The notes under the pieces were generated by a model. It was not told where the DNA came from. It did not search any database and saw only the letters and a list, made by a program, of their open reading frames with translations. A stretch of DNA of 41,041 bases from Gammaproteobacteria bacterium. Lineage in GTDB: Bacteria; Pseudomonadota; Gammaproteobacteria; Steroidobacterales; Steroidobacteraceae. The stretch covers positions 1 to 41,041 of the forward strand of contig JANYLH010000072.1 of NCBI GenBank assembly GCA_025357915.1, given 5' to 3'. Position numbers and translations under genes: made by a program. Shown here piece after piece: positions 4,058 through 26,664 of this stretch; the stretch's first letter is position 1, and each line of letters starts with the position of its first letter.

Positions 4058-4999
4058 ATGATTTACGACAACATACTCGGCACCATTGGCCGCACTCCCG
4101 TCGTCCGCATCCAGCGCCTCGCGCCGGCCGGCGTGACCATGTACGTGAAGTGCGAATTCTTCAACCCGCTGGGCTCAGTCAAGGACCGCCTGGCCATCGC
4201 CATCATCGAAGACGCCGAGCGGCGGGGCGAACTCAAACCCGGCCAGACGGTGGTCGAGGCGACTTCCGGGAACACCGGCATCGCGCTGGCGATGGTCTGC
4301 GCGGTCAAGGGTTATCCATTCGTCGCCGTCATGGTCGAGACCTTCTCGATCGAGCGCCGCAAGATCATGCGCATGCTCGGCGCCAGGGTGATCCTGACGC
4401 CAGCGGCCGGGCGTGGCACCGGCATGGTGCGCAAGGCCGCGGAACTCGCCGAGAAGAACGGCTGGTTCCTCGCGCGCCAGTTCGAGAACCCGGCTAACCC
4501 GGCCTATCATCGCAGCACCACGGGTCCGGAAATTCTTTCCGACTTTGCCGGCAAGCGGCTCGATTACTTCGTGAGCGGCTGGGGAACGGGCGGCACCATG
4601 ACGGGCGCGGGCGAGATGATCCGCCTCGCGCGACCCGAGGTGCGCATCATCGCCACTGAGCCCGAGGGCGCGGCACTGCTGTCCGGTAAGCCGTTTGCGC
4701 CGCACAAGATCCAGGGCTGGACGCCCGACTTCATCCCTGCGGTGCTCAACCGCAACGTGGCCGACCGCATCGTCACCGTCACGGACGCCGAGTCGATCGA
4801 CGCCGCGCGCCAGCTCGCACGCCAGGAAGGCATCTTCGTCGGCATCTCGAGCGGCGGCACTTTTGCCGCGGCACTCAAGGTGGCGAAAGAGGCCGGCCCG
4901 GGCGCGGCGATCCTCGCCATGCTGCCCGACACCGGCGAGCGCTACATGAGCACTGTGTTGTTTGAAGGAATCCCGGATGGGTCCGATCCGGAAGGCTGA
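4058..4999 (+). CDS. cysK: Cysteine synthase (PLP-dependent sulfhydrylase)
   Basis: Forms L-cysteine from an activated serine ester and sulfide. The PLP lysine is in NPLGSVKDRL (K42), the phosphate/substrate loop is TSGNTG (69-74), and GWGTGGTMTG and ISSGGT are the other cofactor-binding loops. 313 residues is normal. The protein resembles the CysK/CysM-like enzymes that Xanthomonas-type bacteria encode next to a MetX-family serine acyltransferase, and here that gene overlaps its 3' end by 23 nt. The natural substrate may therefore be O-succinylserine instead of O-acetylserine (inference). Divergent from cysB. Confidence 0.92.
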   Translation: MIYDNILGTIGRTPVVRIQRLAPAGVTMYVKCEFFNPLGSVKDRLAIAIIEDAERRGELKPGQTVVEATSGNTGIALAMVCAVKGYPFVAVMVETFSIERRKIMRMLGARVILTPAAGRGTGMVRKAAELAEKNGWFLARQFENPANPAYHRSTTGPEILSDFAGKRLDYFVSGWGTGGTMTGAGEMIRLARPEVRIIATEPEGAALLSGKPFAPHKIQGWTPDFIPAVLNRNVADRIVTVTDAESIDAARQLARQEGIFVGISSGGTFAAALKVAKEAGPGAAILAMLPDTGERYMSTVLFEGIPDGSDPEG

Positions 5000-6138
5000 G
5001 TCACGCGTGATCGACGCGCCCCGCACGCAGCCTGCACCACCTGCCACGAGCGGACACGCGCCCGACAGCGTGGCATTGCCTGATCCATTTCCGATGTACC
5101 GGGGCGGCGTACTGCACGGCGCGCGCATCGCTTACGAAAGCTGGGGCCGGCTGAATGAGGCGCGCGATAACGCCATTTTGCTGTTCACCGGCCTGTCCCC
5201 TTCTGCACACGCTGCGGCCACGGCCGGGAATCCAGCGCCCGGCTGGTGGCAGCGCATGATCGGTCCGGCACTGGCGATCGACACCAGCCGCAATTTCGTG
5301 CTGTGCGTCAATTCGCTCGGCAGCTGTTTCGGCTCGACCGGCCCGACGAGCATCGACCCGGCCACGGGTGAGCGTTACCGGCTCGCCTTTCCCGAAGTGG
5401 CGCTGGAAGACATCGCGCGCTCCGGATTCGAAGCCGCGCGCGCTGGGCATCGAGCAACTCGAAGTCGTGATGGGTGCCTCGCTCGGCGGGTCGGTGGTCG
5501 CCGCCTTTGCGGCGCTGTTCCCCCAGGGCGCGCGACGCCTGGTCAGCATCTCCGGATCGCCCGCGGCCTCGCCCTTTGCGATCGCCCTGCGATCTGTGCA
5601 GCGCGAGGCGGTGCTGCGCGACCCCGACTGGCAGGGCGGCAATTATTCCCCCGACCACCCGCCACGCAATGGCATGCGCCTGGCGCGCAAGCTCGGCACG
5701 ATCACTTACCGCTCGGCGACCGAGTGGCGCCAGCGCTTCGGGCGCGAGCCACTGGCCGGCATGGCCCTGCGCACGAGCCCGTTCGCGCCGCGCTTCGCCG
5801 TCGAGGGCTACCTCGAGGCACAGGCGGAACGTTTCGTCCGCATCTATGACCCCAATTGCTATCTGTACCTGTCGAGTGCGATGGACCGCTTCGACCTGGC
5901 CGAGCACGGCGGTTCGTACCAGGCGGCGTTCGCAGGCAGCAGGCTGCGCGACGCGCTGGTGATCGGCGTCGAGAGCGACCTGCTCTACCCGATCCACGAA
6001 CAGGCGGCGCTCGCCGAGGCCTTCGAGCGCTGCGGCGTGCGCACGAAATTCACGCGGCTCCCCTCGCTCGAGGGGCATGACGCCTTCCTGGTCGACATCC
6101 CGCGCTTCGACGCCGAAATCCGCGCCTTCCTGGCCTAG
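4977..6138 (+). pseudogene. MetX-family acyltransferase (serine O-succinyltransferase-like), frameshifted
   Basis: Alpha/beta-hydrolase acyltransferase of the MetX family. In Xanthomonas-type relatives, members with LTGLSP..HAA, NPAPGWW and DPNCYLYLSRSMD-like motifs act as L-serine O-succinyltransferases feeding cysteine synthesis. Here NPAPGWW, nucleophile elbow GASLGGS, DPNCYLYLSSAMD, Asp in GVESDLLYP and His in LEGHDAFLVD are all present. The reading frame breaks at about 5434-5443: the first frame runs to SGFEAAR, the second resumes at ALGIEQLEVV. Adding one GC to the GC repeat restores a single protein of about 387 residues. The start is ATG 4977 after GAAGGA, overlapping cysK. This is either a recent inactivation or a sequencing error. 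Confidence 0.85.
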
Positions 6139-6251: not shown

Positions 6252-6267
6252 TGTGAAATAGTTCACA
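6252..6267. promoter_or_regulatory. CRP/Vfr/Clp-type binding site
   Basis: TGTGA-N6-TCACA, a perfect match to the CRP half-sites, lies about 80 bp upstream of the predicted transcription start of the small gene at 6393. Its flanks also form a larger imperfect repeat (TGAAATAGTTC / GAACATTTCA). The site stands in an AT-rich island (about 6241-6360) within GC-rich DNA, as expected for a regulated promoter. Confidence 0.65.
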
Positions 6268-6302: not shown

Positions 6303-6332
6303 TCTTGCAGTGCATACAGTATGGGTTACCAT
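6303..6332 (+). promoter_or_regulatory. Promoter with PhaR-like operator, copy 1
   Basis: The 16-mer TCTTGCAGTGCATACA (6303-6318) is identical to one in the phasin promoter (24436-24451). It contains the TGCA-G-TGCA type of dyad seen in PhaR operators and overlaps the -35 TTGCAG (6305-6310). A -10 TACCAT (6327-6332) follows after 16 bp. The sequence from the spacer through the -10 also aligns with the phasin promoter (11 of 15 positions at 6321-6335). Binding by the PhaR encoded at 23039 is an inference. Confidence 0.6.
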
Positions 6333-6392
6333 ATGGTTTGTAGAGCTAATCATATTGATTGCCTACCTGTTTAGAGACAAAGGAGCACGAGC

Positions 6393-6587
6393 ATGAGCGA
6401 ACTGAACTTCAAACCAGCGGCCGGCAGCGGTTTTGCCGGTGACAAGGCAGAGTCCGTGCCGGCGCTCGACGCCAGCACGCCGGGGACCAGCAGCCAGCGG
6501 GGCAAATCGCCGGCCAGCCAGCGCCGGCGCCTGAACGTCCTGCGCTACACGATCGACCCGGGGTTCCGGCTGTTCCGGGTCTTCTGA
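6393..6587 (+). CDS. Unrecognised 64-residue protein in a PHA-type promoter context
   Basis: The sequence starts MSELNFKPAAGSGF, has a Ser/Ala/Gly-rich middle and a basic stretch SQRRR, and ends in an aromatic tail (DPGFRLFRVF). No family is recognised, and there is no signal peptide or membrane segment. AAAGGAG lies 8 nt before the ATG. A full regulatory region precedes it (CRP-type site, PhaR-like operator, -35/-10) and an 11-bp hairpin follows at 6616, so this is very likely a real single-gene unit. Sharing its promoter with the phasin gene suggests a role linked to PHA storage, for example at the granule surface. Function is otherwise unknown. Confidence 0.72.
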   Translation: MSELNFKPAAGSGFAGDKAESVPALDASTPGTSSQRGKSPASQRRRLNVLRYTIDPGFRLFRVF

Positions 6588-22888: not shown

Positions 22889-23038
22889 AGCGTGCTAACC
22901 AATTGAAATAATTAATGTATCAATCTGCCCGCACGCGCCAAAGCGCGCCTGTGCGGCGTTCAATTGTGCGACGCATAGCGACTGAGTTAGCATGCGCGCG
23001 CATCTTTTACCCCCCTCTGTCCGTCACCGGATCAAGCT

Positions 23039-23551
23039 GTGAGCCCACCCAGAGTCATCCGCAAATACGCGAACCGCAGGCTCTACGACGCGACCGCCAG
23101 CCGGCATGTCACGCTCGAGGACATCCGGCGCCTGATCGCCAGTGGCGAGCGGGTGCAGGTCGTCGATGACCGGTCCGGTGACGACCTGACGCGCGCAGTG
23201 CTGCTGCAGATTATCTCCGAGCAGGAACAATTCGGTTCCCCCGTTCTGAGCGTGCAATTGCTCGAGGGCATTATCCGCTTCTACGGCAATCCTGTGCAGG
23301 ACATGCTCTCACGCTACCTCGAACAGAGCCTCGGCACGGTCATGCAGCAGCAGCGCTCGGTCCAGGCGCAGATGGCCAAGGCGATGGAAGCGCCATTGGC
23401 GCCGCTCGCGGAACTCACGCGCCAGAACATGGAAATGTGGAGCCGCATGCAGGCGCAAATGCTCGCTGCGCTCAACCCCCAGGCGCCCGCTGCGAATGAG
23501 CCGGGGACTTCCGGGACGCCGCCGCAGCCCGACGATCAATCCCCCAAATAA
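23039..23551 (+). CDS. phaR: PHA synthesis repressor PhaR
   Basis: Cytoplasmic regulator that binds both DNA near phasin genes and PHA granules, releasing the promoter when polymer accumulates. The N-terminal PHB-accumulation domain has the hallmark IRKYANRRLYDATASRHV and DDLTRAVLLQII; the PHB_acc helix follows (LLEGIIRFYG...YLEQSLGTVMQQQ). A Gln/Met-rich C-terminal part ends with a Pro-rich tail. 170 residues from GTG 23039. It lies 9 nt before an SDR reductase gene and upstream of phasin and phaC. Confidence 0.94.
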   Translation: MSPPRVIRKYANRRLYDATASRHVTLEDIRRLIASGERVQVVDDRSGDDLTRAVLLQIISEQEQFGSPVLSVQLLEGIIRFYGNPVQDMLSRYLEQSLGTVMQQQRSVQAQMAKAMEAPLAPLAELTRQNMEMWSRMQAQMLAALNPQAPAANEPGTSGTPPQPDDQSPK

Positions 23552-24435: not shown

Positions 24436-24466
24436 TCTTGCAGTGCATACAAACATGCGCTAGAAT
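24436..24466 (+). promoter_or_regulatory. Phasin promoter with PhaR-like operator, copy 2
   Basis: The 16-mer TCTTGCAGTGCATACA (24436-24451) overlaps the -35 TTGCAG (24438-24443); a -10 TAGAAT (24461-24466) follows after 17 bp. The same element stands before the 64-residue gene at 6393. The TGCA-G-TGCA core and the phasin target are what is expected for PhaR repression. It sits in a 188-bp gap that also contains an AT-rich stretch (24365-24415). Confidence 0.7.
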
Positions 24467-24510
24467 ATGCCCCGTGGAGATGCAGGCCCCCCTTCTTCGG
24501 AGTACATGAC

Positions 24511-24870
24511 ATGAACACCAACACTTTTGACCCGACCGCCCTGATCGAGAGCTACCGCAATGCGCTGGCCCCGATGCTCCATGCCCAACAGGAAGGCCTC
24601 AAGGCTTTCGAGCGCATGGCCCGTTACCAGTACGCCGTTGCCGGCGACTACCTAGAGTGGAGCCTGACGCAGGCGCAGGCCGTCCTCGCGGCCAAGAACC
24701 CCACCGAGCTCGCCGCCAAGCAGGCCGAGCTGGGTTCGAAGATCAGCGAGCAGCTGCGCGGCCGCGTGCAGGAACTGACCACGATCACCAGCGAGTCGCA
24801 GAGCACGCTGAACCAGCTGTTCAACGAAGCGACGGCCAAGGTCGTCGAACTGTCGAAGAAAGCTGCCTAA
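24511..24870 (+). CDS. phaP: Phasin family protein
   Basis: Small amphipathic granule-coat protein, 119 residues and almost wholly helical: LIESYRNALAPMLHAQQEGLKAFERMARYQYAV followed by a long helix with regular Leu/Ala and Gln spacing, ending in ATAKVVELSKKAA. This pattern fits the phasin family. It is expected to coat PHA granules and limit coalescence. It lies between phaR-SDR and phaC and has its own promoter with a PhaR-like operator 60-75 bp upstream. Confidence 0.9.
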   Translation: MNTNTFDPTALIESYRNALAPMLHAQQEGLKAFERMARYQYAVAGDYLEWSLTQAQAVLAAKNPTELAAKQAELGSKISEQLRGRVQELTTITSESQSTLNQLFNEATAKVVELSKKAA

Positions 24871-24936: not shown

Positions 24937-26664
24937 ATGACCACCGCCCTGCAACTGGCAAGCCCGCAGCAACTGGTGCGCGGCGTGCGCTCGCAGCTCG
25001 CCACCGGGCACGCTGCGCCGGACGCTGATGACTATCTGCGTGCCTGGGCCGACTGGTGCCTGGGGCTCGCGATGGCGCCAGACAAACAACTGGCGCTCGC
25101 CCAGTCGGCCGTTGCCATGGGCGCCGACACCTGGCGCTTCGCGCTGCAGGCAGCTAGCGGACGGCGCATGGTGCCCGCAACCGAAGATCCGCAGTTCGCT
25201 GCCGCCGCCTGGCATCACTGGCCTTTCAACCTCTACGCCCACGGCTACGGCCACCTGAAGCAGTGGGGCGCCGCGGCTCTCGCCGCCGCCGCTGGCATGT
25301 CCTCCGAGAACGCGCGCCGACTCGAATTCCTGCAGCGCCAGTGGCTGGATGCTGTTTCGCCCGCGCACTATCTGGCGACCAATCCGCAGCTGCTGGAGCA
25401 GACGCACGCCGAAGGCGGCGCCAACCTGCTGCGCGGCGCGCGTCACTGGCTCGCGGACGCCGCGCGCCTGATAGCCGGCGGCGCCGCGCCCGGCACCGAG
25501 CATTTCCGCGTTGGCGAGCAGGTCGCGGTCACGCCGGGCAAGGTCGTGATGCGCAATGAACTCGCTGAGCTGATCCAGTACAGCCCGCAGTCCGAGGCAG
25601 TGCACGCCGAGCCGATCCTGATCACGCCGGCGTGGATCATGAAGTACTACATCCTCGATCTCTCGCCGCACAATTCGCTGGTGGACTACCTGGTCGGCCG
25701 CGGTTATACGGTGTTCATGCTGTCGTGGAAGAACCCGACCGCCGCCGACCGGAACCTCGGCATGGAAGACTATCTGCGGCTGGGCCTGAACGCGGCGCTT
25801 GATGCCGTAGGTGCCATCGTGCCCGGCAGGCGGATTCACGCCGTCGGCTATTGCATCGGCGGCACGCTGCTCGCCATCGGTGCAGCCGCGCTGGCTCGTC
25901 AGGGCGACACGCGCATCGGCTCGATCACGCTGTTCGCCGCGCAGACGGATTTCAGCGAACCAGGAGAACTGTCGCTGTTCATCTCGCCGAACCAGCTCAA
26001 GGCGCTTGAAGGGCAGATGCAGCGCGACGGCGTGCTCAAGAGCGAGAGCATGGGGGCGGCGTTTGCCATGCTGCGCGGGGCCGACCTGATCTGGGCGCCG
26101 GCGGTCAACCAATACCTGCGTGGCCAGCGCGCGACGCTGAATGACCTGATGGCCTGGAATGCCGATGGCACGCGCATGCCCTGCCGCATGCACAGCGAAT
26201 ACCTCAATCGGCTCTACCTGCACAATGAACTCGCCGCCGGCCGCTTCACCGTCGTCGGTGAAGCGGTGGACCTGAAACTGCTGGCGGTGCCGATATTTGT
26301 AGTCGGCACCGAGACCGATCATGTGGCACCGTGGCGCTCGGTGTTCAAGACCCGCGCGCTGACGCGCTCAGCTGACTTCAGTTTCGTGCTCACCAGCGGC
26401 GGCCACAACGCCGGCATCATCAGCGGCCCGGTGAATGCGAAGCGCCGTCATCGCGTGTTTCACTGGGCCGACGCCGAGGCGCCCGCCAGCCCCGAACAAT
26501 TCCTGGATGGCGCCGAGCTGCACGCCGGATCATGGTGGCCAACCTGGGAGCAATGGCTCGCCGCGCGTTCCACGCCCGCGAACGCGACGTCGCCGCCGAT
26601 GGGCAATGCCGCCGCGGGCTTTCCGCCGCTCTGCGACGCGCCCGGCGGCTACGTGCGCGGCTGA
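24937..26664 (+). CDS. phaC: PHA synthase, long single-chain type (class I-like)
   Basis: Polymerises hydroxyacyl-CoA to PHA. 575 residues, as in class I/II synthases. The lipase-like box GYCIGG carries the catalytic Cys306; Asp461 (GTETDHVAPW) and His490 (SGGHNAGI) complete the triad. PAWIMKYYILDLSPHNSLV and WPFNLY are further family motifs. Unlike the second synthase at 29904 it needs no PhaE partner. It lies downstream of phasin behind a hairpin, and its 3' end overlaps the convergent DUF885 gene by 16 nt. Substrate chain length cannot be told. Confidence 0.93.
   Translation: MTTALQLASPQQLVRGVRSQLATGHAAPDADDYLRAWADWCLGLAMAPDKQLALAQSAVAMGADTWRFALQAASGRRMVPATEDPQFAAAAWHHWPFNLYAHGYGHLKQWGAAALAAAAGMSSENARRLEFLQRQWLDAVSPAHYLATNPQLLEQTHAEGGANLLRGARHWLADAARLIAGGAAPGTEHFRVGEQVAVTPGKVVMRNELAELIQYSPQSEAVHAEPILITPAWIMKYYILDLSPHNSLVDYLVGRGYTVFMLSWKNPTAADRNLGMEDYLRLGLNAALDAVGAIVPGRRIHAVGYCIGGTLLAIGAAALARQGDTRIGSITLFAAQTDFSEPGELSLFISPNQLKALEGQMQRDGVLKSESMGAAFAMLRGADLIWAPAVNQYLRGQRATLNDLMAWNADGTRMPCRMHSEYLNRLYLHNELAAGRFTVVGEAVDLKLLAVPIFVVGTETDHVAPWRSVFKTRALTRSADFSFVLTSGGHNAGIISGPVNAKRRHRVFHWADAEAPASPEQFLDGAELHAGSWWPTWEQWLAARSTPANATSPPMGNAAAGFPPLCDAPGGYVRG

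Follow-up and report, generated by a model that had tools for sequence, protein, structure and literature searches.

A phasin gene and a small gene encoded 18 kb away from it carry the identical 16-mer TCTTGCAGTGCATACA in their promoters. This sequence is very probably a PhaR operator placed over the −35 region of both promoters, so that both genes would be derepressed when PHA accumulates; for this reading, which is built on sequence comparison, we estimate a probability of roughly 0.82. The window, by which we mean the whole analyzed stretch of 41,041 nucleotides (contig JANYLH010000072.1 of a Steroidobacteraceae assembly), contains the two predicted PhaR-type operators at 6303–6318, upstream of a gene for 64 amino acids (6393–6587), and at 24436–24451, upstream of the phasin gene (24511–24870; Phasin_2, PF09361, 46.7 bits against a cut-off of 24.9). 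These operators and genes lie on the + strand, as do phaR, phaC, and the promoter elements of the window described below. At both places the motif covers a predicted −35 box TTGCAG (6305–6310 and 24438–24443), which is followed by the predicted −10 box TACCAT (6327–6332, spacer of 16 bp) in the small-gene promoter and TAGAAT (24461–24466, spacer of 17 bp) in the phasin promoter. The two −10 regions (6321–6335 and 24455–24469) are alike at 11 of 15 positions, and in four orthologues the −10 box of the small gene reads TATCAT, TATTGT, TATTAT, and TACTAT. From the start of the motif to the ATG the distance is 90 bp for the small gene, which is preceded by the ribosome-binding site AGGAG (6381–6385), and 75 bp for the phasin gene. 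The palindromic core TGCAGTGCA of the small-gene operator occupies 6306–6314; the right arm TACA of the 16-mer falls outside the palindrome, and part of what the two copies have in common may be kept for the promoter or for some other protein. An earlier sequence-only reading had reported the overlap with the −35 box, the distances to the start codons, the spacers, and the likeness of the −10 regions, and all of these counts proved correct.

The identity and common orientation of the two copies, likewise claimed in that reading, go far beyond what chance would give. Within the window no third match was found at up to three mismatches, and shuffled sequences gave 0.18 matches on average with none of 100 shuffles reaching two. 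Throughout the own genome assembly (2,668,664 bases in 87 contigs, 93% complete) there are two matches at up to two mismatches, each before the phasin or the small gene, against one for the reversed motif. The same threshold yielded 27 matches, compared to 10 for the reversed pattern, in the genus set of 15 genomes (own included), and the DNA downstream was read for all 27. All 14 strong matches (eight exact, six with one mismatch) precede either a phasin gene (nine) or the small gene (five) and start 67–95 bp ahead of the start codon, the phasin starts of two loci (L022, L029) having been set from the phasin profile match; none of the 13 two-mismatch matches stands before either gene. A search of 150 family genomes for the 15-mer CTTGCANTGCATACA gave 18 exact matches, and reversed controls gave none. 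Thirteen of the 18 are located before a phasin gene and four before the small gene, and around the remaining one (G101) neither gene was seen in the surrounding sequence. A scatter of hits over unrelated regions would have spoken against a dedicated operator, and the strong matches show no such scatter (14/14 in the genus, 17/18 in the family). The strict 15-mer is not universal in the family. A phasin was matched in 57 of its genomes, and 13 of these have the 15-mer before it; elsewhere a looser palindrome takes that place. A wider regulon was sought in the own genome with TTGCANTGCA, which gave 10 matches against six for reversed controls; most of the eight other matches appear, as judged by eye, to lie inside coding frames. 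One of the eight, TTGCACTGCA, is located at 1291–1300 of L044, 61 bp before the ATG of what we take to be a porin-like outer-membrane gene, a possible further PhaR target.

The window encodes the presumed reader of this motif, as the sequence-only reading had stated: phaR (23039–23551) is recognized by TIGR01848 (134.5 bits against a cut-off of 109.45), and its product would regulate the phasin and the small-gene promoters. A PHA synthase gene, phaC (24937–26664, profile match), follows the phasin gene. PhaC and phasin are present in the same nine of the 15 genus genomes, and exactly these nine carry a match to the 16-mer with no or one mismatch. The small-gene promoter has what is expected of a member of the PhaR regulon: TGCAGTGCA at 6306–6314 agrees with the core TGCRNYGCA / YGCRNYGCR, the genome encodes PhaR, and the site is common with the phasin promoter and kept across PhaR-encoding species, namely in five of the six PHA-positive carriers of the small gene. 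Upstream of phaR itself there is a weak PhaR-type match, TGCGACGCA (22967–22975), and the other eight PHA-positive genomes of the genus have a YGCRNYGCR match 64–100 bp before the PhaR domain match. PhaR is known to regulate its own gene, and occurrence in 9/9 PHA-positive genomes is as expected from this autoregulation; the pattern is loose, with 70 matches in the window and occurrences upstream of 5 of 15 other PHB_acc_N loci.

Orthologues of the small gene were recovered by single-sequence search from G001, G003, G008, G012, G013, and G014 (E 6e-9 or better) and from G007 (3.8e-4), which together with the own copy form the eight-member alignment A1. A profile search added weaker orthologues in G005, G009, and G006 (E 9e-8 to 6e-6), so that 11 of the 15 genus genomes carry the gene; a weak match in G011 (E 0.005) was left uncounted, and the match L014 (E 0.0018) was read as chance because it lacks the conserved C-terminus. 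Outside the genus, from which alone the gene is known so far, the profile gave only weak matches (E 8e-4 to 0.0097), several with internal stops, and none was counted. A scan of named genome contigs returned seven small-gene loci, all from metagenome-assembled Gammaproteobacteria or Proteobacteria. A metX-like frame was looked for upstream of the gene in seven other loci and found in six; in L115, the seventh, an ORF of the same cluster takes this place. The end of a similar frame was also found upstream in L118 and L120. In the window, metX is split over two frames (about 4900–6138), one with the N-terminal and one with the C-terminal part, and is a single frame in six of seven relatives searched; either an assembly error or a broken gene would account for this.

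Five of the eight A1 orthologues have the PhaR-type site, which is exact in the own genome, L007, L008, and L010 and differs by one change in L009. Across these five promoters 15 of the 16 motif positions are invariant, compared to 54 of 162 other alignment columns. Conservation at orthologous loci was therefore partial: the motif is kept in four of the seven other A1 loci, one of them with the single change, and is absent from those of the PHA-less genomes G003 and G007 and of the PHA-positive G008. G008 has PhaC, phasin, and a PhaR-type site at its phasin gene, which shows that a PHA-positive species can have the small gene without the site. On these comparisons the small gene does not follow PHA in its occurrence, and the PhaR-type site at the gene does. 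The gene appears to be confined to the genus and to be a member of the PhaR regulon in only some of its species; most likely it would have been recruited into, or dropped from, this regulon within the genus.

This distribution bears directly on the proposal of the sequence-only reading that the gene at 6393 is PhaR-controlled and granule-linked. The shared PhaR-type operator is well supported by the comparisons above, and the link to the granule found no support. The gene is not tied to the occurrence of PHA synthase in the 15 genus genomes: it was found in six of the nine with PhaC and in five of the six without (G003 and G007, and as weaker orthologues G005, G006, and G009). It was not detected in three of the nine PHA-positive genomes, which counts for little in G004 (72% complete) and G011 (86%) and for more in G002 (97%). 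That the small protein is granule-associated or dedicated to PHA would be compatible with a PhaR operator and could draw on the site it has in common with phasin in five of the six PHA-positive genomes where it was found; the gene's presence in PHA-less genomes and its apparent lack in three PHA-positive ones nevertheless make this unlikely, as do the properties of the protein. Neither Pfam nor NCBIfam profiles assign it a phasin domain or any other family, and when all eight orthologues were searched at E values up to 1 only a chance-level match to PPL5 (E 0.08) appeared. The protein is arginine-rich with a net charge of +3 to +6 (R, K, D, and E counted), and an AlphaFold2 model of low confidence (mean pLDDT 63.3, pTM 0.12) shows no secondary structure.

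Given that each copy of the 16-mer covers a −35 box and that the two promoters resemble each other in spacer and −10 box, the sequence might simply be the strong −35 region recognized by one sigma factor, with an incidental likeness to a PhaR operator. The phasin loci of the family make this explanation improbable. In the best-scoring 30 of the 58 phasin matches listed for 57 genomes, YGCRNYGCR occurs within 130 bp upstream in 29 loci (dinucleotide shuffles: mean 1.04, maximum 4), L076 being the only one without it, and TGCANTGCA occurs exactly within the same distance in 24 (shuffle mean 0.125). The palindromic form is constant among family phasins, while its centers differ (TGCACTGCA, TGCAGTGCA, TGCGCTGCA, TGCAGCGCA) and the arms vary too, and in several loci (for example L069–L072) the distance between the palindrome and the TTG of the presumed −35 box is greater by 2 bp. 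A palindrome that is kept with a varying center and displaced by 2 bp speaks for a protein-binding site rather than for a promoter box alone. Moreover, if the palindrome were a general part of promoters, one would hardly expect it at only two genes and, within the genus, only in PhaC-positive genomes. The phasin tree has too little support to tell when the site was gained or lost.

The operator also resembles published PhaR sites. As far as the available portions of the respective papers show, the consensus in B. diazoefficiens, deduced with footprints, is TGCRNYGCASMA (PMC6201568), the site in R. eutropha is YTKNTGCRNYGCANMAR (PMC12849132), and the motif in S. meliloti is WNWD2NYGCRNYGCRNH2WNW with the core YGCRNYGCR (PMC12542648). 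The core of the small-gene operator fits all three, and one to three outer positions mismatch; counted against the three full forms, the site has 2, 2, and 3 mismatches. Such a scan is too loose for the GC-rich window, which holds many places as near to the published consensus as the operator. With so many places scoring alike, this likeness can only lend support, and it is on the comparative evidence that the claim rests.

A real operator could be read mainly by a regulator other than PhaR, for instance by the second PHB_acc_N protein of the own genome, a short PhaR paralogue encoded on contig 34 (L004, 7295–7468). We consider this improbable as well. A PHB_acc_N protein is encoded in all 15 genus genomes, including the six without PhaC, yet none of these six has a site with no or one mismatch. 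The nine genomes with the site encode full-length PhaR-type proteins (160–178 residues from the domain start), and the shorter copies of 102 and 123 residues occur in site-less ones. The latter, L093 (G007) and L095 (G003), come from genomes that lack PhaC and phasin and are possibly decaying after the loss of PHA. The remaining PHB_acc_N proteins of the genus are of the paralogue type, as judged from the sequences and from a tree of 16 of the 24 that has several long branches.

The small-gene reading frame is probably real. Start, stop, and the C-terminal GFRxFRV[YF] are kept among the orthologues, a GGAG-type ribosome site is present in most, and insertions and deletions comprise whole codons. 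In 27 of the 28 pairwise comparisons the third codon position shows the most differences; in the remaining one it ties with the first. Codons with a changed amino acid exceed synonymous ones in 27 of the 28 pairs, and the gene thus evolves fast. Given these features, it is very improbable that the ORF at 6393 is untranslated and its promoter makes a regulatory RNA, a notion to which the short, fast-changing protein, a palindrome near +1 in the 5′ region, and the small RNA MmgR that PhaR represses in S. meliloti (PMC12542648, available part) lend some color.

Two further elements accompany the predicted operator in the small-gene promoter. Firstly, a palindrome GTGAAATAGTTCAC at 6253–6266, which we presume to be CRP-like, was recognized from sequence and orthologue comparison. 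Its form GTGA-N6-TCAC is located 36–37 bp upstream of the PhaR-type site in the same five of eight A1 promoters, and a search of 170 bp did not find it in the promoters of G003, G007, and G008. A role as mere companion of the PhaR site was considered and dropped, since of the three weaker orthologues L118 and L119 have GTGA-N6-TCAC upstream without a PhaR-type site; the box is therefore not simply tied to that site and may be older. Secondly, a degenerate palindrome GTTTGTAGAGCTAAT (6336–6350) surrounds the predicted +1 of the small gene. GTTYG-N5-CRAAC is exact at this position in five of the eight A1 orthologues and near in the other three, the own one included; among the weaker three the search form matches L120, and L118 and L119 are similar by eye. 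This palindrome persists in promoters that lack the PhaR-type site, and its two arms change independently of each other (for example GTTCG with CAAAC). To judge from its sequence it resembles a binding site for a protein more than an RNA hairpin, and it would be a candidate second operator at +1. As a regulon marker the palindrome was rejected: the strict form GTTYGTANNRCRAAC, which the own copy does not fit, gave 13 rows at 12 places in the 15 genomes (reversed control: 1), four of these places being small-gene promoters and the other eight lying in varied surroundings where no shared gene was seen.

PhaR control remains the best explanation for the small-gene promoter, and by analogy with published PhaR systems the protein would bind the operator, repress rather than activate, and be released by PHA. 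As long as polymer is scarce, free PhaR would occupy the TGCA-N-TGCA palindrome of each promoter and keep RNA polymerase out; upon PHA accumulation PhaR would move to the granule, and phasin and small gene would be derepressed together. According to the part of the R. eutropha study that is accessible, the PhaR sites of phaP1, which lie beside the −35 and at the transcription start, are characteristic of a repressor that works by steric hindrance, and at phaP3, with upstream PhaR sites, PhaR activates (PMC12849132). Since both sites described here cover the −35, repression relieved by polymer is to be expected for both genes.

The small gene probably adds a new target to those of a familiar type of regulator and brings in a protein family that is so far uncharacterised. 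More speculatively, and with the odds rather against it, this might be an unnamed family of small, arginine-rich, probably disordered proteins with three inputs (CRP-like box, PhaR operator, +1 palindrome) that, after recruitment in some species, would carry the polymer-store signal outside PHA metabolism. Either way, a strict motif that marks little but phasin promoters, plus one unexpected extra target, makes the gene a test case for the reach of a polymer-sensing repressor beyond the granule, and the comparison within the genus, of the gene with and without the site and of genomes with and without PHA, offers a view of a regulon changing its membership. A literature search, which covered subscription papers incompletely, returned no account of this gene or of a PhaR regulon of this family among the listed titles and abstract beginnings.

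The PhaR regulons in the papers cited are those of alphaproteobacteria and Ralstonia; here a clean operator is found in a gammaproteobacterial family that is represented in this analysis by metagenome assemblies. Among the closest counterparts is R. eutropha PhaR with phaP1, where, in the accessible text, a TGCRNYGCA palindrome likewise lies beside the phasin −35 and steric repression is relieved by PHA (PMC12849132). In contrast to phaP1, an identical site is present here at a second, non-phasin gene 18 kb off, and there is one strict site per promoter instead of the two footprinted regions that the same source gives for phaP1 (PMC12849132). In B. diazoefficiens, TGCAGTGCA itself is among the sites listed in the part of the paper at hand (phaZ3, rhlE), but the bases that follow the core are TAC here and SMA in TGCRNYGCASMA, a difference at two of three positions (PMC6201568). 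The core YGCRNYGCR is shared with S. meliloti PhaR/AniA, whose motif, according to the available sections, occurs in 50 promoter regions, whereas the strict motif marks two promoters of the present genome (PMC12542648). The strong S. meliloti targets named there include the small uncharacterised proteins SMc03998 and SMc02051 (PMC12542648), and a small non-phasin target of PhaR is thus not without precedent.
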